This document shows, in pieces, positions 26,688-35,263 of a stretch of 35,382 nucleotides of DNA (positions are counted from its first letter, which is position 1; every line of letters starts with the position of its first letter). The stretch spans positions 1-35,382 of the forward strand of contig NZ_JAQCNO010000026.1 of assembly GCF_028274965.1 (NCBI RefSeq). The letters are read 5' to 3'. The notes beneath the pieces were generated by a model that made no database searches, was not told the origin of the DNA, and saw only the letters and a list, made by a program, of their open reading frames with translations. The stretch is from Natronomonas sp. GTDB lineage: Archaea > Halobacteriota > Halobacteria > Halobacteriales > Haloarculaceae. Made by a program: the position numbers and the translations under genes.

Positions 26688-27161
26688 TCAGGACGCGTCG
26701 GGCGTTGTGAGCTCCGCCCCGTCGCCGAACTCGCCGTTTATCATTCGGGGGTCGATCCAGACGATGAACTCCGAGTCCCGCTTGATGAGCCCGCGGATGT
26801 GGCCGTGGTCCACCGGCGGGTCGTCGACCTCCTGTTCGGAGACATCGGAGACCTCCTCGACGCTGTCGACGGCCCACCCGATCGATCGGTCGTCCTCGAA
26901 GATGGCCGAATCGAAGATCACGATCCGGTCGCCGAGGTCGCCCCCGACGTCGAGTCCGACCTTCGGATCGATGATCGAGGTCGTGTTCCCGCGGAGGTCG
27001 ATGACCCCCTCGACGTGCGGCGGCGAGTTCGGGATCGGCGTCAACTCGCCCATGTCGACGATCTCGGTCACGTACTCGATGCTGACGCAGTATGTCTCCT
27101 CGCCGAGGCGGAACTCAAGCACCTGTTCGGTCTCGAGTTGCTGGGTCGCTTCCTGGGACAT
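26688..27161 (-). CDS. cheW: Chemotaxis coupling protein CheW
   Basis: CheW links transducers to the CheA kinase. The ATG at 27161 (MSQEATQQLETEQ) gives 157 aa; the longer frame upstream is shadow of other genes. Family features are VLEFRLGEETYCVSIEYVTE at the start, then PNSPPHVEGVIDLRGNTTSI, then IIDPKVGL, then RSIGWAVDSVEEVSDV. The C-terminal part is RGLIKRDSEFIVWIDPRMI. The AGTATTAAGTA element at 27194-27204 is its likely promoter. No other chemotaxis gene is nearby, so it resembles the dispersed second CheW of some haloarchaea. It is followed by copA on the same strand. Confidence 0.93.
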   Translation of the reverse strand: MSQEATQQLETEQVLEFRLGEETYCVSIEYVTEIVDMGELTPIPNSPPHVEGVIDLRGNTTSIIDPKVGLDVGGDLGDRIVIFDSAIFEDDRSIGWAVDSVEEVSDVSEQEVDDPPVDHGHIRGLIKRDSEFIVWIDPRMINGEFGDGAELTTPDAS

Positions 27162-27193
27162 GGTTCGGGTATCGTACCTTTCCAGCCGTTCGG

Positions 27194-27204
27194 TACTTAA
27201 TACT
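27194..27204 (-). promoter_or_regulatory. TATA box of cheW
   Basis: AGTATTAAGTA on the minus strand lies 33-43 bases before the cheW ATG and predicts a short leader of roughly 8-15 bases. It supports the start at 27161 rather than the longer frame. Confidence 0.5.
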
Positions 27205-27338
27205 CCGAGCGTTTCATCGCCTGATACGCGGGGCGTGGGCGGCGGCGTCGGGGCCGGCGCACCCGGGACGGACCGACGGCCGAGGCGCTCGTCCCCGATA
27301 ACGGAACCCATTTGCGTCCCGACGCCGGATTCACGCGC

Positions 27339-27641
27339 ATGGACTGGCCTCACGACCCCGACGGCGAGGATGGCTCCGAAGGGAAACGCAAGTACGGGCA
27401 GGCGGTGCTGGCAAAGAAGATCGACGAGGAGGAGGAGTTCCCGCTGACGACATCGGAGTTCGTCGAGGAGCACGGCTCCGATCCGATCCGCCTCAACCAC
27501 GAGCGCGTCGTCAGCGTCGCCGACATCTTCGAACACGTCGAGGAGACCGAGTTCGAGGACTTCGTCGAGTTCCACGGGGCGGTCGGGCAGGCGATGCGAG
27601 ACAACGATATGTGGGAACTCGAGGACGAACACGTCGCCTGA
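27339..27641 (+). CDS. DUF5785-type small haloarchaeal protein
   Basis: A 100-residue acidic protein. The ATG at 27339 (MDWPHDPDGEDGSEGKRKYG) is the start that matches the family as I remember it; an ATG 27 bases earlier would add non-conserved residues. Other landmarks are VLAKKIDEEEEFPLTTSEF, HGSDPIRLNHERVVSVADIF and EFHGAVGQAMRDNDMWE. It has no cysteine, signal or membrane helix. I recall the family name DUF5785 but no function. It is divergent from cheW (177 bases) and 86 bases upstream of GTP cyclohydrolase III. Confidence 0.82.
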   Translation: MDWPHDPDGEDGSEGKRKYGQAVLAKKIDEEEEFPLTTSEFVEEHGSDPIRLNHERVVSVADIFEHVEETEFEDFVEFHGAVGQAMRDNDMWELEDEHVA

Positions 27642-27727
27642 CGGCGGGCCCCGAGTAAGGGGGTGAAACACCGGCCGTACCGTCGACAATGGTAAGGCAA
27701 ATACCGGCCGGCCGCTAACCACGGACC

Positions 27728-28486
27728 GTGACGAACACCCAGGTTACGCTCATACAGATCGACAACTACGGCCCTTGGACGGTCACGCCCGAACCCCGCC
27801 GGGAAGTCGACCTCCAGACGCTCCAATCGCGGCTGTACGCCGACCTCTCACAGCTGTTCGGGAACCGCGAGGGGTACGTCTTCTTCACGCGGTTCGACAA
27901 CATGGTCGCGGTGACGAACGGCCTCGACAGCGACGCCCACGCCCTGATACAGGAGTCCGTCGACAACCGGTATCCGGTGAGCGTGAGCCTGAGCGTCGCC
28001 GTGGACGCCTCTCCGGCGCGCGCGCTCGGGGTCGCGACCGACCAGCTTCAGGACGCCGGGAGCGCACAGGACCGCGGTCGGACGGAGATCCTCCGCGGCG
28101 ATCCGCTCGCCGACCCCGAGCGATCGGGCGACGACGTGCGCATCGCCCACTTCGACGTCAACGACGCGACCGGAAAGTACACCGATGAGCTGAACGAGTT
28201 CGACTCCTTTATCAACATCGAACAGGGCTACGCCGAGCTGATGCGACACATGCGCACCGACCACGAGTCGCTGTCGTTTTTCGTCGGCGGCGACAACATC
28301 ATCGCCGTCTGTGACGCCCTCGAGGCCGCGGCGTACCGCGAGGCGATCGAACACGTCAGAGACGCCGTCGGGGTCGATCTGAAGGTCGGGGTCGGCACCG
28401 ACCGGACGGCCCAGAAGGCGGGCATGGCGGCCAAACACGCCCTGGAGACCTGCCGCGAAGAGGGGACGGACGTCGAGTTCGCCTGA
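27728..28486 (+). CDS. gch3: GTP cyclohydrolase III (archaeal)
   Basis: The enzyme hydrolyses GTP to 2-amino-5-formylamino-6-ribosylamino-pyrimidinone phosphate, the first archaeal step towards riboflavin and the F420 chromophore. The start is a GTG at 27728 (translated MTNTQVTLIQIDNYGPWTV); the AT-rich GGCAAATACC about 30 bases upstream supports it. Family features are TPEPRREVDLQTLQSRLYAD, QLFGNREGYVFFTRFDNM and, in the second half, FVGGDNIIAVCDA with KVGVGTDRTAQKAGMAAKHA. The two related halves reflect the known duplicated ferredoxin/cyclase-like fold. Length is 252 aa, close to the Methanocaldococcus enzyme. Confidence 0.95.
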   Translation: MTNTQVTLIQIDNYGPWTVTPEPRREVDLQTLQSRLYADLSQLFGNREGYVFFTRFDNMVAVTNGLDSDAHALIQESVDNRYPVSVSLSVAVDASPARALGVATDQLQDAGSAQDRGRTEILRGDPLADPERSGDDVRIAHFDVNDATGKYTDELNEFDSFINIEQGYAELMRHMRTDHESLSFFVGGDNIIAVCDALEAAAYREAIEHVRDAVGVDLKVGVGTDRTAQKAGMAAKHALETCREEGTDVEFA

Positions 28487-28563
28487 TCGCACCCTCCGAA
28501 TGCGAGCACACCCCGGCGATGCTTCCGGACGCGTCCGTGACGCCGGCACACTGACGGGGAGGG

Positions 28564-28570
28564 TTTTTAT
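28564..28570 (+). promoter_or_regulatory. TATA box of the DUF3179 lipoprotein gene
   Basis: TTTTTAT lies 23-29 bases before the ATG at 28593, so the transcript should be leaderless. This decides the start against the ATG at 28500 in the same frame. Confidence 0.6.
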
Positions 28571-28592
28571 CGATCCGATCGAACACGCGTTC

Positions 28593-29387
28593 ATGCGTCG
28601 TCGACCGCTGTTGGCCGCGCTCGGAGCGACCGTCGCTACGGCCGGGTGTGTGACCGGGTACGCGGCCGACGACACGGGAGACGACCCGACCGGCGAGCCC
28701 CCGGCGACGGACGGCAACGACGGGCAAAGAGACGGGGAAGGCGAGGGGATCGACGCGCCGACGCTCGCCGAACAGGGCCGACCGCCGACGCTCTGTGAGG
28801 AGGACCTCCGACCCGAGGGCATCCGAGCGATCGACGACCCGTCCTTTTGCGCCCCCAAGGCGTGGCCCGACGACCCCGACGGGTACCGGCCGCTCGAGGA
28901 GGGCTCGACCGTCATCGGGGTCGAACGCGACGGCGTGGCGCGCGCGTACCCGCTGACGGTGCTGAACGTCCACGAGATCGTCAACGACACCCTCGGCGAA
29001 CCGATGATCGTCACCTACTGTCCGATCTGTCGGAGCGGGATGGTCGCCGACCGGCGCGTCGACGGCGACACGGCGACGTTCGACGTCTCGGGGCTGCTTT
29101 GGGTCCCGCCGCGGATCTACACGGCCGCCGCCGAGGAGGAGGGCCGCGTCTTCTCCGACCGCGAGGACGGCGTCGGCAACAACGGAAACCTGGTGATGTA
29201 CGACGACGCGACGCGCTCGTACTGGTCGCAGATGCTCGGACAGGCGATCTGCGGGCCGCGGGCGGAAACCCGACTCCGGACCCTGCCCTCGACGGTGTCG
29301 ACGCTCGGCGCGTGGCGCGAGGACAACCCCGACGGCGGGGTGCTGTTGCCCCCGCCCGCCTCGGGGATCGTCGATCCGCCGATCTGA
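28593..29387 (+). CDS. DUF3179-family lipoprotein
   Basis: The 264-residue protein starts with a Tat-type lipoprotein signal, MRRRPLLAALGATVATAGC, lipidated at C19. An acidic, Gly/Asp-rich linker to about residue 50 follows. The mature part matches DUF3179: GVERDGVARAYPLTVLNVHE, VNDTLGEPMIVTYCPICRSG with CPIC at 143-146, then RRVDGDTATFDVSGLLW, then DDATRSYWSQMLGQAICG. Conserved His and Cys suggest a metal, heme or redox site, but no activity is established that I know of. It should face the outside of the membrane. A strong TATA box precedes it, and the next gene, another lipoprotein, has its own promoter. Confidence 0.88.
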   Translation: MRRRPLLAALGATVATAGCVTGYAADDTGDDPTGEPPATDGNDGQRDGEGEGIDAPTLAEQGRPPTLCEEDLRPEGIRAIDDPSFCAPKAWPDDPDGYRPLEEGSTVIGVERDGVARAYPLTVLNVHEIVNDTLGEPMIVTYCPICRSGMVADRRVDGDTATFDVSGLLWVPPRIYTAAAEEEGRVFSDREDGVGNNGNLVMYDDATRSYWSQMLGQAICGPRAETRLRTLPSTVSTLGAWREDNPDGGVLLPPPASGIVDPPI

Positions 29388-29458: not shown

Positions 29459-29480
29459 TAAATAAGCCGTTATGTACCTT

Positions 29481-30881
29481 ATGCCGCGCAAAGTTCGCAG
29501 ACGCGACGTGGTAAAGGGCGTAGGGATCGCCGGCGTGTCGTTCGGCCTCGCCGGCTGTACCGGCAACGGAAACGGCGGTAACGGCAACGGTAACGGCGGT
29601 GGCAACGGCAACGGCAACGGTGACGGCGGCGACGGCGGTGACGGCGGTGACGGCGGCGACGGCGGCGACGGCGGCGACACCGGCGGCGGTGTCGACGTAC
29701 TCAACGTCATCGGCTACCCCGAGGACGGGAACACGCTGTTCCGCGACTACTACAGCCTGACCGACGGCACCGGGGACGTCATCGTCCCCGACGGGCTCCA
29801 GGACGGCGAGATGCAACAGCAGGTCGGAAACCCGATGGACAACGTCATCGGGACGGCGCCCGACGCTGGCGGGCCCGCCGAGGAGGCGTTCATCGGGCTC
29901 TACGAGGACGAGTACGACTCGTCTCCCGGGATATTCACGTCGCAGTCGTACGACTCCGTCGCCGTCGGCATCCTCGCCAACGTCGCTGCCGGCGAGAACA
30001 GCGGTATGGGCGTCCGCGATCAGATGCGCAACGTCGCGAACCCCGAGGGCATGGAGGTCACGCCGGAGAACTTCGTCGAGGGCGTCGAGGCCGTCGCCAA
30101 CGGCGAAAACGTCAATTACCAGGGGGCGTCCTCGGACGTCAACTTCAACGAGGCCGGCGACCCGGCGAACGCCACCTACGCGATTTGGGAGTTCGACGGC
30201 GAAGGCGGGACGACGGACATCGAGACGCTGAGCTTCGAGGGCGCTAATCCACAGGGCGCGGGCCCCTCCGCGGACTCGATCCCCGGCGGCTTCGGGCGCA
30301 CCGTCGAGGTCGGCATCCTCCTGCCGGAGACCGGCAACCTCGCCTCGGTCGGCGAGGAGATGATAAACGCCGCGGAGATCCCGGCCATGCAGGTCAACAA
30401 CGCCGACGTCGACATCGAGGTCAACACCACCTTCGAGGACACCAACACCAATGCCAACACCGGGATCCAGGCCGCGAACTCCCTCGTCAACGCCGGCGTT
30501 CCGTTCGTCTGTGGGTCGGCGTCCTCCGACGTGAACGTCCCCGTCTCCCAGGAGGCGTTCATCCCGAACCAGGTGGTCGGCTGCTCGCCGTCGTCGACGG
30601 CGCTGTCGGTCACCAACTTCGAGGACGACGACTACATCTTCCGGACCGCGCCGTCCGATATACTGCAGGGCCGCGTGATGGCACAGGTCGCCTCCGAGCG
30701 ACTCGGCGCCGAGACCGCCGCCACGCTGTACATAAACAACGACTACGGCCAGCAGCTCTCCGAGCAGTTCAGCTCGGTCTTCGAGGACGACTTCGACGGC
30801 ACCGTGACCGGACAGGTCGCGTACAACCCGAACGAGGGCTCCTACACCTCGGTCATCCAGGAAGCCCTCGGCAGCAACTGA
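29481..30881 (+). CDS. ABC transporter substrate-binding lipoprotein (LivK-like), circularly permuted
   Basis: The 466-residue protein begins with a Tat lipoprotein signal, MPRKVRRRDVVKGVGIAG, with lipobox cysteine C26, then a Gly/Asn/Asp linker (27-70). Residues 71 to about 238 correspond to the second half of a type I (Peripla_BP_6/LivK) binding protein: DVLNVIGYPEDGNTLFRDYY, VIGTAPDAGGPAEEAF, GIFTSQSYDSVAVGILAN and VNYQGASSDVNFNEAGDP. After a bridging segment (239-273), residues 274-466 are the first half: TVEVGILLPETGNLASVGEE, then FIPNQVVGCSPSSTALSV, then YIFRTAPSDILQGRVMAQ, then LYINNDYGQQLSEQF and YNPNEGSYTSVIQEALGSN. The half that normally opens the fold thus comes last. The frame is intact, with a strong TATA box and a terminator-like end. 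It faces the liv operon convergently and probably supplies its ligand, likely an amino acid, urea or amide (inference). Confidence 0.85.
   Translation: MPRKVRRRDVVKGVGIAGVSFGLAGCTGNGNGGNGNGNGGGNGNGNGDGGDGGDGGDGGDGGDGGDTGGGVDVLNVIGYPEDGNTLFRDYYSLTDGTGDVIVPDGLQDGEMQQQVGNPMDNVIGTAPDAGGPAEEAFIGLYEDEYDSSPGIFTSQSYDSVAVGILANVAAGENSGMGVRDQMRNVANPEGMEVTPENFVEGVEAVANGENVNYQGASSDVNFNEAGDPANATYAIWEFDGEGGTTDIETLSFEGANPQGAGPSADSIPGGFGRTVEVGILLPETGNLASVGEEMINAAEIPAMQVNNADVDIEVNTTFEDTNTNANTGIQAANSLVNAGVPFVCGSASSDVNVPVSQEAFIPNQVVGCSPSSTALSVTNFEDDDYIFRTAPSDILQGRVMAQVASERLGAETAATLYINNDYGQQLSEQFSSVFEDDFDGTVTGQVAYNPNEGSYTSVIQEALGSN
29559..29690 (+). repeat. Gly-Asn/Gly-Asp coding repeat (lipoprotein linker)
   Basis: Forty-four codons after the lipidated cysteine are mostly GGC/GGT with AAC, then GAC, in 6- and 9-base periodicities such as GGCGACGGC. 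They encode a flexible GNGNGG to GDGGDGGDGG linker. Such linkers are common in haloarchaeal lipoproteins and tend to vary in length. Confidence 0.8.
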
Positions 30882-30979: not shown

Positions 30980-31774
30980 CTACCCGCCCAGGAAGTCCTG
31001 TCTGACCTGATCGTCCTCGAGGAGCGCGCGCCCGGTGTCCTCGTAGCGGTTCTTCCCGTCGACGAGCACGTAACCCCGATCGCACCGCCGGAGGGCCTCC
31101 TTCGCGTTCTGCTCGACCATCAGGACCGCCGTGCCGTCATCGTTGATGCCGTCGATGCGATCGAACATGTCGTCGACGAGGTCGGGCGCGAGGCCCGCGG
31201 ACGGCTCGTCGAGCAACAGCAGATCCGGGTCCAACATCAGCGCGCGCCCCATGGCGAGCATCTGCCGCTGTCCGCCGGACATCGTCCCCGCCTCCTGGTC
31301 TCGTCGCTCTCTGAGGATCGGAAAGCGGTCGTAGACGGCCTCGATCGACTCCTCGGGCACCTCGTCGAGGATGTACGCCCCCATCTCGAGGTTCTCCTGT
31401 ACCGACAGCGACCCGAAGATGTTGTGATTCTGGGGGACGTACCCCAGGCCCTCGTAGATTATCTCCTCCGGTTGGGTGTCCGTGATGTCCGCGCCGCCGT
31501 ACTCGATGGTCCCGCCCATCCGGTTTGTGAGCCCGAACACGGACTTCATAACGGTCGATTTCCCCGCCCCGTTGGGGCCGACGATCGTGACGTACTCGCC
31601 GTTTCTGACGTCGAGGTCGACGCCGGTGAGTATCTGGAGGTCGCCGTAGCCGGCGTCGAGGTCCCGGACGGCGAGCAGGCTGTCCTCCCACGTGTTCGTC
31701 CCGCGGTTCGCGCCGTCCGAGGCCTCGCTGTCTCCGGTTCTGTCCCCGTCCGTTTCCGTTTCGGTCGCGCTCAT
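30980..31774 (-). CDS. livF: Branched-chain-amino-acid-type ABC transporter ATP-binding protein LivF
   Basis: One of the two cytoplasmic ATPases of a HAAT-family importer (264 aa). Walker A is GPNGAGKST, followed by the Q-loop region LGYVPQNHNIFGSLSVQEN. The ABC signature is MSGGQRQMLAMGRAL and Walker B is LLLLDEPSAGLAP, with the H-loop replaced by the LivF-typical VLMVEQNAKEAL. The C-terminal GRALLEDDQVRQDFLGG is the LivF ending. The N-terminal 28 residues are a variable acidic extension. Its ATG overlaps the livG stop by 4 bases. The substrate could be branched-chain amino acids, urea or another amide; the ATPase does not tell. Confidence 0.95.
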   Translation of the reverse strand: MSATETETDGDRTGDSEASDGANRGTNTWEDSLLAVRDLDAGYGDLQILTGVDLDVRNGEYVTIVGPNGAGKSTVMKSVFGLTNRMGGTIEYGGADITDTQPEEIIYEGLGYVPQNHNIFGSLSVQENLEMGAYILDEVPEESIEAVYDRFPILRERRDQEAGTMSGGQRQMLAMGRALMLDPDLLLLDEPSAGLAPDLVDDMFDRIDGINDDGTAVLMVEQNAKEALRRCDRGYVLVDGKNRYEDTGRALLEDDQVRQDFLGG

Positions 31775-32670
31775 TCGACCTCACCCCCGAGGTACGCCTC
31801 GATGACGTCCTCGTTGCGTTTTATCTCGGCCGGCGGGCCCTCGGTGAGCACCCGCCCTTGGTGCATCACGATGACGCGCTCGCAGTTCTGCATGATCAGG
31901 TCCATGTCGTGTTCGACGATGAGGAAGGTGTACCCGTCGTCACGGAGGTCGTGGATGTGCCCTAGGAGCCGCTCCTCCAAGGAGGGGTTGACGCCGGCGA
32001 AGGGCTCGTCCAACAACAGCACCGTCGGCTCGGTCAAAAGCGCCCGCGCCAACTCAAGCAGCTTCCGTTGTCCACCCGAGAGGTTCCCCGCGTACTCGTC
32101 TGCGAGGTGGTCGATCTCGAAGAACTCGAGCATCTCCCAGCACCGCTCGAGTATCTCCTCTTCTTGCTCGCTCACCGACCGCCGAACGAACGGCAGGACG
32201 GACCGCCAAAGCGACTCCCCGCGTTGGCCCTTCGGCGCGAGCATCATGTTCTCCATGACCGTCATCTCCTCGAGCTCCCGGGCGATCTGGAAGGTCCTGA
32301 CCAGCCCGCGGTTCGCGATCCGGTCCGGCGATAGCCCGGTGATGTCCTCGCCGTTGAACTGGACCTGTCCCGCGGTCGGCTCGTGGACCCCGGTGATGCA
32401 GTTGAACGTCGTCGACTTGCCCGCCCCGTTCGGACCGATGAGCCCCGTCAGCGTCCCCTCCGTGATCTCGAAGGACGCCTCGTCGACGGCGACGATCCCG
32501 CCGAACTCCTTGCGGAGCCCCTCGACCCGCAGCGGGATCGCACTCGGCGTGTGCTTCGCCGCCCGCTCGACGTCGGAGTCTTGGGCCTCCGGCTCCTCGA
32601 TCTCGACGTCCTCCGCCGGCGCGTTCGTGTCGACGACGTCGTCGACCTCGGTGTCACTCACCGTCGACAC
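31771..32670 (-). CDS. livG: Branched-chain-amino-acid-type ABC transporter ATP-binding protein LivG
   Basis: The second ATPase of the importer (299 aa). It has GPNGAGKSTTFNCITGVHEP (Walker A), LSGGQRKLLELARALLTEP (signature) and VLLLDEPFAGVNP (Walker B), with FLIVEHDMDLIMQNCERVIV at the H-loop, as in LivG. About 45 acidic residues precede the ATPase domain and are variable. The start is a GTG at 32670; a second GTG at 32661 (MSDTEVDD) is equally plausible and reduces the overlap with livM from 17 to 8 bases. Translation is coupled to livM and livF. Confidence 0.94.
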   Translation of the reverse strand: MSTVSDTEVDDVVDTNAPAEDVEIEEPEAQDSDVERAAKHTPSAIPLRVEGLRKEFGGIVAVDEASFEITEGTLTGLIGPNGAGKSTTFNCITGVHEPTAGQVQFNGEDITGLSPDRIANRGLVRTFQIARELEEMTVMENMMLAPKGQRGESLWRSVLPFVRRSVSEQEEEILERCWEMLEFFEIDHLADEYAGNLSGGQRKLLELARALLTEPTVLLLDEPFAGVNPSLEERLLGHIHDLRDDGYTFLIVEHDMDLIMQNCERVIVMHQGRVLTEGPPAEIKRNEDVIEAYLGGEVE

Positions 32671-34018
32671 CCCTGTTTTCCTCGCCGCCGTCGGTCGCCG
32701 GCGGCGATCCGCCGGTCTTCGCCCGACGGCGGCCCAGCGGGATGGTGCTCGCCGTCTCCTTTCGGTGCCCGAGTATCCCCTCGGGGCGGTTGTGCATCAG
32801 GTAGATCAACACGAGCCCCATGATGACAAACCGCAGCTGACCGATGTTGTCGACGGTGTAGGCCAAAAGCGGGACCGGATCGGCCGCGGCGAGCGGTCCG
32901 ACCGCCTGCGCGAACGTGTTGACCGCGTCGATCTCGAAGCTCCCCTCAATGACGTTGCTGAAGAAGATCGGCCCCTGATAGAGGACCGCGGCGAAGATCG
33001 CGCCGCCCATGACGCTTCCGGTGTTCGAGCCGGCGCCGCCGATTATCAGCGCAATCCACACGAAAAACGTGATCCGCGGCCGGAACGCGTTCGGCGTGAT
33101 CGCCCCCTGGCTGGCGTACAACAGGATCCCGCCGAGGCCCATGAGCGCACACCCGATGACGAACGCCTTGATCTTGAACCGGTCCGTGTCCTTCCCGAGG
33201 GCCTTCGTCGCGTCCTCGTCCTCGCGGATCGCCTTCAGGACCCGGCCGTACGGGGAGCTTCCGACCCGGGTGAGAAGCACGTAGAACCCGACGAGAAACA
33301 CCAAAAGCACGAGCCCATAGAGGATCCCGTCGAACACCGGCTTCGGGTTCGACCCGATCCCGATGGCCTCGCCGGTGCGTTCGGAAAACCGCGTGTAGGA
33401 CTCCAACAGCCCGAACGCCCCGAGGAGCCGATCGACCGGGTCGAAATCGAGAAGCAGCCCCGAACCGCCCCCGAGACCGACCCAGTAGCCGAGGACCTGC
33501 CCCTGCTGGAGGCTCTGCTCGAGCAGCGTAAACCGGACCACCTCGCTGAGACCGACGGTCACGATGGCGAAGTAGTCCGCCCGGAGCCGCAGCGCCGGCA
33601 GCGCAACGAGCCCTCCGAACAGCCCCGCAGCGACGACGCCGCCGATGATCCCGATCCAAAGCGGCAGCCCGAAGCCGCCGGTCGTCCCGGCGGCGGGTTC
33701 GGTCAGCGTGGCCCCCTTCGAGAGGATCGCCGTCGTGTAGATGCCGATCCCCATGAAGCCGATCACGCCGATGTTGAACAGCCCGGTGTAGCCCCAATGG
33801 AGGTTCAAGGCGAGCGCGAGCATCGCGAACACGGCGATGAAAAACGACAGCTGTGCGAGCTCGTTGAGCTGTTGGCGGAGCCCGTAGCTCAACAACAGCC
33901 CGCCGACGACGTACGCGGCGAAGAGGCCGCTGACGAGCGCGGTCAGCTTGACGGCGTCTTGCTCCCAGACGGCCGCGAGCGTCCCTCTGTCGTCGGCGCT
34001 TTGCTCGGCGCCGCTCAT
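32654..34018 (-). CDS. livM: Branched-chain-amino-acid-type ABC transporter permease LivM
   Basis: A permease subunit of 454 aa with eight to ten hydrophobic segments. LivM landmarks are ALALNLHWGYTGLFNIGVIG near the start, ALRLRADYFAIVTVGLSEVV, and GRVLKAIREDEDATKALGKD, the cytoplasmic EAA-like loop that touches the ATPase. FVIGCALMGLGGILLYASQG follows. The C-terminal 45 residues are hydrophilic and variable. It is longer than the bacterial average because of an insertion (about 180-240) between the ALRLR and GRVLK regions. Its start overlaps the livH stop by 4 bases (ATGA). Confidence 0.95.
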   Translation of the reverse strand: MSGAEQSADDRGTLAAVWEQDAVKLTALVSGLFAAYVVGGLLLSYGLRQQLNELAQLSFFIAVFAMLALALNLHWGYTGLFNIGVIGFMGIGIYTTAILSKGATLTEPAAGTTGGFGLPLWIGIIGGVVAAGLFGGLVALPALRLRADYFAIVTVGLSEVVRFTLLEQSLQQGQVLGYWVGLGGGSGLLLDFDPVDRLLGAFGLLESYTRFSERTGEAIGIGSNPKPVFDGILYGLVLLVFLVGFYVLLTRVGSSPYGRVLKAIREDEDATKALGKDTDRFKIKAFVIGCALMGLGGILLYASQGAITPNAFRPRITFFVWIALIIGGAGSNTGSVMGGAIFAAVLYQGPIFFSNVIEGSFEIDAVNTFAQAVGPLAAADPVPLLAYTVDNIGQLRFVIMGLVLIYLMHNRPEGILGHRKETASTIPLGRRRAKTGGSPPATDGGEENRGVDGE

Positions 34019-35133
34019 GCTGTGGACCTCCCGGCGAAGATCCCCTCGGGACGGACGAGCAACACCGCGATCATGATGAGGAAGGCGGCCGCCCGCGAGA
34101 GCCCGCCCGGGATCCAGACGACCGACAGCGACATCACGAACCCGATGACGAGACCGCCGGCGATCGCGCCGTACACGGAGCCGATCCCGCCGAGGATGAC
34201 GGCCGCAAAGACCGGCAACAGGAGGCTCCAGAACTGAAACCAGTGTAGCGTTTCGTTCCAGAGGACGAACATGTACCCGGCGACGCCGGCGAGCCCGGCG
34301 CCGATGATCCAGGTGAACCGGACGACCCGCTCGGTCGGGATCCCGGTGATGCGCGCTAAGTCCTCGTTGTCGGCCATCGCCCGCATCGCCTTACCGAGTC
34401 TCGTCCGCTGCAACAGGAAATGAAGCCCGAGCATCAACACGACGGCGACGACGAGAAGCGAGACCTCGTGGAGATCGACGTTGACGGTCCCGTCGATCAC
34501 CGGAACGGCGACGCTCGGGATACCACTGGGGTCGGTGACGCCGCGTCGGCCCGGGCCGAAGACGAACACGATGAGATACCGCAGCGCGAACGCGACGCCG
34601 ATGCTCGTGATGAGAAGCGTGATCCCCGAGCGATCGCGTATCGGCTTGTACACGAAGCGATCGATGATGAGCGCCAGCGCGATCGACGCGACCGCGGCGA
34701 CGACCACGCCGGCTAACACCGCAAGCGGCGACGTCGCAACGCCGATGCCGAGGGCGGCGCCGAAGACCGACCCGCCGGCGCCGACGAGTAGCAGCGACCC
34801 GAGGGCTGCCTCCGTGCCGAACCCGCCGGCGATGACGTACGTGGCCGCCACCCCGCCGAAGGCGCCCCCCGTGATGAGATCGCCGTGTGCGAAGTTCGCG
34901 AAGTTCAGGATGCTGTACGTCATCGAGAGCCCGATCCCCGCGAGCCCGAAGAACAGCCCCCGCATCAGGCCGTCTTTCAGGAGCACCCCGAACTCGGAGA
35001 ACTGCGTCTGTCCGACGGCGAGTTGGCGTACCAGATCGAGAGCGAGCACAACGAACACGATCACGAGGGCGGCCCGGATCGGGTCCTCGATCAGGAACTC
35101 GCGCCCGCGCTCGTATGAGTCACTGACTCCCAT
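34015..35133 (-). CDS. livH: Branched-chain-amino-acid-type ABC transporter permease LivH
   Basis: The other permease subunit and the first gene of the operon (372 aa). The ATG at 35133 (MGVSDSYERGREFLIEDP) is preferred; the open frame extends into the shared intergenic region, but that part is not conserved. LivH landmarks are GLAGIGLSMTYSILNFANFA, then HGDLITGGAFGG, ITLLITSIGVAFALRYLIVF, GKAMRAMADNEDLARITGIP (ATPase-contact loop) and YGAIAGGLVIGFVMSLS. A TACTTTACG element at 35165-35173 lies 32-40 bases upstream and is the likely operon promoter. pgk is divergent. Confidence 0.94.
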   Translation of the reverse strand: MGVSDSYERGREFLIEDPIRAALVIVFVVLALDLVRQLAVGQTQFSEFGVLLKDGLMRGLFFGLAGIGLSMTYSILNFANFAHGDLITGGAFGGVAATYVIAGGFGTEAALGSLLLVGAGGSVFGAALGIGVATSPLAVLAGVVVAAVASIALALIIDRFVYKPIRDRSGITLLITSIGVAFALRYLIVFVFGPGRRGVTDPSGIPSVAVPVIDGTVNVDLHEVSLLVVAVVLMLGLHFLLQRTRLGKAMRAMADNEDLARITGIPTERVVRFTWIIGAGLAGVAGYMFVLWNETLHWFQFWSLLLPVFAAVILGGIGSVYGAIAGGLVIGFVMSLSVVWIPGGLSRAAAFLIMIAVLLVRPEGIFAGRSTA

Positions 35134-35164
35134 GTTGTTTCGTACCCGATTAGCCGGCACACAA

Positions 35165-35173
35165 CGTAAAGTA
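35165..35173 (-). promoter_or_regulatory. TATA element of the livHMGF operon
   Basis: TACTTTACG on the minus strand lies 32-40 bases before the livH ATG, predicting a leader of a few to about 12 bases. It is the only AT-rich element on that side of the 159-base region shared with pgk. Confidence 0.45.
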
Positions 35174-35263
35174 CTCTTCGGCTCACGCGGTGGTCTCGGC
35201 GGCGCGTTCGGCCGTTCGGCGCCCAAACCGGTGCTCGGCGGCGGTCGCGGCGTTGCGCAAGGC

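Follow-up and report, generated by a model that had tools for sequence, protein, structure and literature searches.

A natural circular permutation is as a rule described as a single, ancient change. The classic cases are DNA methyltransferases and swaposins, for which the consulted portion of a review gives a permutation-by-duplication model together with documented intermediates (PMC3320104). Among binding proteins, the closest published case found is Treponema pallidum Tp0684 (MglB-2), which the accessible part of its description presents as a permuted type I binding protein of the sugar-binding MglB branch, cut in the N lobe and proposed as Type Ic/Cluster Bc. Its first three N-lobe strands are moved to the C-terminus while the order of the C lobe is intact, and the authors suggest a link between permutation and tethering (PMC4990184). 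As far as that text goes, a permuted binding protein is as a kind already known to the superfamily. No permuted LivK/PF13458 or haloarchaeal binding protein was found among the matches listed in a search of titles and the starts of abstracts in the open-licence literature. The original prediction knew of no described natural case in this family; at the level of the superfamily, MglB-2 is known (PMC4990184, as available in part).

Here we describe P0001, a binding protein encoded in a window of 35,382 nucleotides, the whole stretch of Natronomonas DNA that was analysed. The halves of P0001 are homologous to those of LivK/LivJ, the branched-chain amino-acid binding proteins of the HAAT family (PF13458; PDB 3ipc, 4n0q, 3td9 and 4gnr), with which it has livFGMH partners and, by prediction, the fold in common; it differs from them in that the halves are swapped, the cut lies in lobe 2 and an extra linker joins the old termini. 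This order, C half before N half, is called CP-1 below. By the available account of MglB-2, both proteins are naturally permuted members of type I/cluster B, MglB-2 being lipid-tethered and P0001 probably so, but P0001 belongs to the LIV rather than the sugar branch, its cut in lobe 2 places it outside Type Ic/Cluster Bc, and in its family the order appears to have been switched more than once; a second permuted order, CP-2, differs from MglB-2 in being cut after the first strand and helix. The same duplication model is applied to DNA methyltransferases and swaposins, which have unrelated folds and, according to the consulted part of the review, documented intermediates, whereas none was found for the LivK permutants. 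Linear profiles conceal such proteins, which are reported as two pieces of an ordinary family. With ordinary, permuted and doubly permuted forms at one locus within one taxonomic order, close relatives can be used to study how permutation proceeds, whether it can be reversed and what constrains it, a natural experiment in which proteins were re-cut in chain order yet apparently still work.

Chain order of P0001 and its locus

The open reading frame, the Arg-rich signal with its lipobox, the spacer and the sequence landmarks were all found where the original prediction had placed them (Table 1). Residues 1-26 comprise what we take to be a signal peptide and lipobox (LAGC), with the lipobox Cys at Cys26; the NCBIfam model TAT_signal_seq (TIGR01409) scored 13.8 bits, below its cut-off of 16.7. 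An alternative in-frame ATG lies at 29472, three codons 5' of the start. The low-complexity Gly/Asn/Asp spacer that follows the lipobox is strongly variable in length among relatives: in 26 canonical genes that were scored, the shortest had 6 residues and the longest 84. After the spacer the chain starts with DVLNVIGYPEDG at residue 72, and the usual first strand, TVEVGILLPETG, appears at residue 274; the landmarks DVLNVIGYPEDGNTLFRDYY and TVEVGILLPETGNLASVGEE begin at these same two residues, and the chain ends with SYTSVIQEALGSN.

Table 1. Features of the P0001 gene and its neighbours in the window
Feature	Position	Strand	Basis
P0001 gene, encoding a permuted (CP-1) LivK/Peripla_BP_6 substrate-binding protein of lipoprotein type, 466 aa	29481..30881	+	
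Presumed signal peptide, Arg-rich start (RRRDVV) and presumed lipobox LAGC, residues 1-26	29481..29558	+	sequence
Gly/Asn/Asp-rich spacer, residues 27-70	29559..29690	+	sequence; residues 1-86 have pLDDT <50 in the full-length model
Family C-terminal half, residues 71-258, now first	29691..30254	+	PF01094 positions 233-352/353; blastp of halves
Linker from old C-terminus to old N-terminus, residues 259-271	30255..30293	+	
Family N-terminal half, residues 272-466, now last	30294..30878	+	PF13458 positions 1-189/343
livF-type ATPase gene, convergent	30980..31774	-	PF00005; NCBIfam best LivF, below cut-off
livG-type ATPase gene	31771..32670	-	PF00005, PF12399; NCBIfam best LivG, below cut-off
livM-type permease gene	32654..34018	-	PF02653; NCBIfam best LivM, below cut-off
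livH-type permease gene	34015..35226	-	PF02653; NCBIfam best UrtB, then LivH, both below cut-off
GTP cyclohydrolase III (IIa) gene, upstream neighbour	27728..28486	+	PF05165, NF002587; common to some CP-1/canonical loci

Searched against Pfam-A in its native order, P0001 matched PF13458 in two stretches with 91.1 bits (cut-off of 31.7) and a protein E value of 1.4E-25, the best stretch aligning residues 274-465 with profile positions 1-189 of 343. The whole-family match exceeds the curated cut-off and places the protein in the LivK-type family, and the narrower NCBIfam model PRK15404 gave 49.7 bits, far below its cut-off of 477. The canonical order, with the GILLPxTG strand first, is not that of P0001, where the profile start falls on residues 274-465. 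Aligned separately, residues 272-466 matched the start of PF13458 (positions 1-189, E value of 1.9E-21), and residues 71-258 weakly matched PF01094, a related family, at its end (positions 233-352 of 353, E value of 3.9E-5, 23.3 bits, slightly below the family cut-off of 25.4). When the halves were rejoined in the ordinary order, a single collinear PF13458 stretch was obtained (positions 1-312, 108.3 bits), comparable to the 107.8 bits of the genuine canonical homologue P0005, and the re-ordered protein aligned collinearly with solved LIV-type binding proteins. Every part is thus present once and collinear after one rotation. A collinear profile alignment of the native chain, which would have spoken against the original prediction, did not occur, and a collinear reading was ruled out, as the native match is split.

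These alignments bear out the prediction: the LivK-type protein is circularly permuted, complete and without duplication, its new termini lie within lobe 2 and the export signal is still in front. Judged from its sequence, P0001 is a circularly permuted member of the LivK family, and its cut is assigned to the loop that, in the ordinary order, follows the lobe 2 helix SYTSVIQEAL and precedes the strand DVLNVIGYP. The chain runs from that lobe 2 strand through the C-terminal half and the linker to the usual first strand, ending with the lobe 2 helix, which in ordinary relatives is followed directly by the strand that here comes first.

The AlphaFold2 model of residues 70-466, built on a 14-row alignment, had a pLDDT of 84.8 and a pTM of 0.88; the full-length model, built on a shallow alignment, was poor (pLDDT 55.8) and gave weak LIV-type matches in Foldseek. 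With the good model, the first six PDB matches were all leucine/LIV-type binding proteins, aligned over 191-202 columns at 2.7-3.6 A, about half the chain, which is as much of a permutant as a sequential aligner would be expected to cover. The segments SPSST, GYPEDG and PDG of P0001, positions that we presume to contact the ligand, align with TPTAT/SPSAT, GYHAEG/GYYNEA and GEG/GDG of the solved LIV proteins.

The neighbouring importer genes were assigned as LivFGMH-type by Pfam family and synteny, the NCBIfam liv models being best or near-best, below their cut-offs; for the livH-type gene, UrtB scored 124 bits and LivH 107 bits, both below cut-off. Among loci of at least 9 kb, livFGMH-type genes were convergent to the binding-protein gene in 21 of 21 CP-1 loci (livF being unmatched in L129 and livH lying past the truncated end of L126), as they were in 4 of 4 CP-2 loci and in all 6 canonical loci from haloarchaea. 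Upstream, a GTP cyclohydrolase III gene was found in six of these CP-1 loci (L039, L128, L130, L134, L142 and L145), in five of the six canonical loci (L139, L140, L144, L147 and L149) and, within the flanks covered, in none of the four CP-2 loci. This one locus of binding protein and livFGMH holds either order, by lineage. Some other haloarchaeal liv operons differ, as seen in L045, where the binding-protein gene lies inside the operon.

Directly upstream of the P0001 gene is a DUF3179 gene (PF11376; window 28500-29387); DUF3179 matches also adjoin the CP-2 loci L135-L138, being fragmented in L136 and L137, and the CP-1 locus L148. A CheW-domain ORF occupies 26688-27722 of the window, with PF01584 on residues 200-327 of 344; it has a long upstream open stretch, and its true start is probably later.

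Distribution of the three orders

Comparison of the two halves by blastp sorted the 125 distinct ORFs from 142 chosen loci into 90 CP-1 (C-N), 30 canonical (N-C, three of them cyanobacterial outgroups) and 5 CP-2 (N-C-N); the loci were picked from good matches, so this ratio is not a natural frequency, and the open frame of the classed ORFs follows by construction from the ORF search. Of 392 genomes sampled across the order, 159 matched at an E value of ≤1E-90, spanning 36 of 95 genera and nine family codes, and among the matches listed all ran across the permuted junction. At ≤1E-40, 62 of 392 genomes of a phylum sample that included the order gave a match, all 62 of them from that same order. 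Within the family of the window's Natronomonas, 138 of 146 genomes had some match at ≤1E-3, a count that takes in signal-only and canonical matches. The permuted form is a widespread haloarchaeal form and not one odd gene. One homologue that can be given by name is the CP-1 protein of Haloarchaeobius iranensis (L039). The bacterial loci sampled (L041-L043) were all canonical, a search of viral contigs found no relatives, and 131 plasmid records had matches, all below 60% identity and counted regardless of gene order.

All three orders occur within the window's genus, for which 20 genomes including the window's own (G000) were considered and orders were read from loci or from match order. Lineage A of CP-1 (lineages are defined below) is found in G000 and in the single-contig genomes G121 and G123, lineage B in G122, G124 and G133, CP-2 in G125, G128 and G134, and the canonical order in G116-G120 and G132; there was no order call for G127 (one half listed), G126, G129 and G130 (weak matches) or G131 (no match). 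In the window's own genome, which is 94% complete, the gene itself is the sole full match, and six others cover residues 2-67 only, which is signal and spacer. In canonical L111 (G037) the C half matched in two pieces (positions 3-138 and 130-180) and the ORF ends in unrelated sequence, which may reflect a frame-shift.

In the five CP-2 ORFs (L046-L050) the first strand and its helix are C-terminal. The mature chain begins with strand 2 of lobe 1 (LEVN...EDT and similar), continues through the rest of the N half and reaches the C half across a seam that has been sealed (EALADGPDVVNVIGYP in L046), followed by a linker resembling that of CP-1 lineage A and then by GILLP..GNLASVGG and its helix. 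The linker common to CP-2 and lineage A suggests that CP-2 descended from CP-1. The two CP-2 groups also differ in their permeases: L136 of one group matched CP-1 L148 at 70% in LivM and 79% in LivH (over 160 residues), and L135 of the other CP-2 group at 53 and 50%.

Number and direction of switches

For the trees, 124 rotated rows were reduced to 98 at 93% identity, with L126 left out as interrupted. In the careful tree of these 98 re-ordered proteins, CP-1 appeared in five places, named A to E: A has 50 rows, of which 4 are CP-2, B has 5, C has 2, D has 1 and E has 11. The CP-1 label required seven changes, seven to seven over the bootstrap trees, with at least five forced by starred branches; the canonical label required five, at least three of them forced, and the CP-2 label two, both forced. 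Lineage B grouped with canonical L120 (100/96) and lineage D with canonical L061 (99/96), and C and E were weakly placed. Quick trees of each half, with several weak branches, kept the five CP-1 lineages apart, and D grouped with L061 in both (86 and 94). In AU tests, for which the groups were named only after the tree had been inspected, single clades were rejected for all permuted rows (109 log units, p-AU 0.0015), for A+B (65 log units, p-AU 0.0028) and for CP-2 (86 log units, p-AU 0.0026), but not for C+D (p-AU 0.273), C+D+E (0.265), A+C+D (0.153) or A+C+D+E (0.124). At least two CP-1 and at least two CP-2 switches are thus supported by the phylogeny. Five CP-1 lineages are the reading of the best tree, and two CP-1 origins alone are taken as firm because merging C, D and E with A was not rejected.

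The separation of B from A was also seen beyond the tree. The N half of B (L125) matched canonical L147 at 67% and CP-1 lineage A (L142) at 53%, and its C half did so at 62 versus 54%; its permeases followed the same pattern, with 60 versus 47% for LivM and 68 versus 53% for LivH, while LivF (81 versus 79%) and LivG (73 versus 74%) did not discriminate. On these figures the LivM and LivH of B side with the operon of canonical L120 against A, and most B rows have SFEA.VGVLMPETGDLG and SSQW in common with L120. Linker comparisons agree in part. The pairs that beat 95% of shuffles numbered 2 of 60 for A-B, 26 of 60 for A-C, 11 of 60 for A-D, 16 of 60 for A-E and 6 of 11 for D-E, so the linkers back the A/B split only, since those of C, D and E somewhat resemble A's; that likeness could reflect a shared origin or merely shared composition and flanks. 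Unlike linkers as proof of five origins were dropped, as the shuffle test confirmed the difference for B versus A only. The 39 CP-1 rows inspected have their new termini in common, all falling in the same helix-strand loop.

A haloarchaeal locus that is a hotspot, where the orthologous binding-protein gene switches its order in place, with five CP-1 events at the same loop, two CP-2 events on top and ordinary, CP-1 (two lineages) and CP-2 forms coexisting in one genus, is a reading that we put forward tentatively, as less likely than not; if true, it would imply a recurrent mutational route and selection on the tether's entry point into the flytrap. It is somewhat unlikely that CP-1 had exactly two origins, one in B and one in an ancestor of A, C, D and E, with the intervening canonical genes misplaced or returned to the ordinary order. 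The clade of A, C, D and E was not rejected, and the linkers of C, D and E lean toward A's, but D lies with canonical L061 in the careful tree and in both half trees, and its halves (L145) matched its canonical sister at the same locus (L140) at 67 and 77% versus 52 and 51% for A. The LivF and LivG of D are likewise nearer the canonical sister (80 and 84%, versus 76 and 73% for A), and its LivM and LivH are undecisive (53 and 49% with the canonical sister, 47 and 52% with A).

A single CP-1 origin early in the order, followed by the return of several lineages to the canonical form by duplication and trimming, appears distinctly improbable. CP-2 illustrates that the N-C seam can be re-sealed inside a CP-1 clade, and the tree leaves the direction of the switches unfixed; against this stand the rejection of one clade for all permuted rows and the unlike linkers of A and B. 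In the careful tree a single gain for A and B would also cost three returns (L120; L107/L064/L109; L059/L103) versus two gains, the branches near the A/B ancestor being weak (72/74 and 78/57).

Proposed function and origin of the permuted forms

We consider it likely overall that P0001 is a permuted binding protein of livFGMH whose family has been switched in order within the locus, CP-1 and CP-2 each having arisen at least twice. P0001 would serve the convergent livFGMH ABC importer as its extracellular binding protein, probably held by a lipid anchor, folding into an ordinary two-lobed flytrap that would bind a branched-chain or similar amino acid and hand it to LivHM. Urea or amide-type substrates may also come into question, because the livH-type gene scores somewhat higher with UrtB than with LivH. 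The permutation is expected to spare the binding site and to shift the membrane tether from the terminus of lobe 1 to lobe 2, and CP-2 would return the tether to lobe 1, at strand 2.

The dN/dS of the window gene against its CP-1 relatives L008, L010, L011 and L012 was 0.18-0.28, and two CP-2 pairs gave 0.12 and 0.31. The order is more than chance, given its presence in 90 of the 125 distinct ORFs and the dN/dS of 0.18-0.28, and the low dN/dS together with the stable livFGMH partnership argues for a probably working importer. That the permuted protein is instead a relic, or has another role such as sensing and does not feed livFGMH, is quite improbable for a gene whose pairing with livFGMH is stable across several families and whose dN/dS is low, even though the CP-1 gene of G288 is split by an ISH3-type element, second copies in G279 and G310 each carry one TAG inside the match (among the matches listed), and the gene is convergent with the permease operon rather than within it.

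The switches within the locus may have occurred by tandem gene duplication, fusion and trimming, and the common cut may mark a loop distant from the cleft, where new ends are tolerated. The tandem-duplication origin that had been proposed at the outset has indirect support: in G174 two CP-1 copies sit side by side, flanked by the GTP cyclohydrolase III gene and livF (L128:6383-8994), and at least eight further g46 genomes have two neighbouring matches. On the other side, no fused N-C-N-C intermediates, and no leftover half genes beside permuted genes, were found in the loci covered. The sole oddities in that search were the tandem CP-1 copies of L128 and the IS-split gene of L126 (G288), counted among the 90 CP-1 ORFs, in which an ISH3-family transposase ORF interrupts a lineage B-type CP-1 gene (L126:7198-8364).

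The origins would merely look multiple if one permuted scaffold had spread and gene conversion had then overwritten its halves with those of canonical copies nearby, both forms being present in some genomes, such as G276. We regard this as very improbable: each half on its own supports the split, LivM and LivH agree with the halves for B, and both halves, for B also the linker, would need to have been replaced. An artefact of assembly or annotation that wrongly joined neighbouring genes or half genes has a negligible chance, and the misassembly of two adjacent genes that the original prediction had itself raised is ruled out: the window's genome is a draft of 73 contigs, but the same order and frame recur in many independent genomes, including assemblies of one to three contigs such as G121 and G123, and the window's genome has no second copy of the gene.

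Microhomology between the spacer and the cut loop was rejected as the cause of the recurrent cut, as no enrichment was found in 26 canonical genes (L110, which has no Cys, was skipped); on average, 46% of windows did as well as the cut loop at its best. Canonical L117 (G259) stands apart: 14 nt of its spacer match the DNA of its cut loop (ADDPD) exactly, and no other of the 26 genes has a match of that length at the loop.
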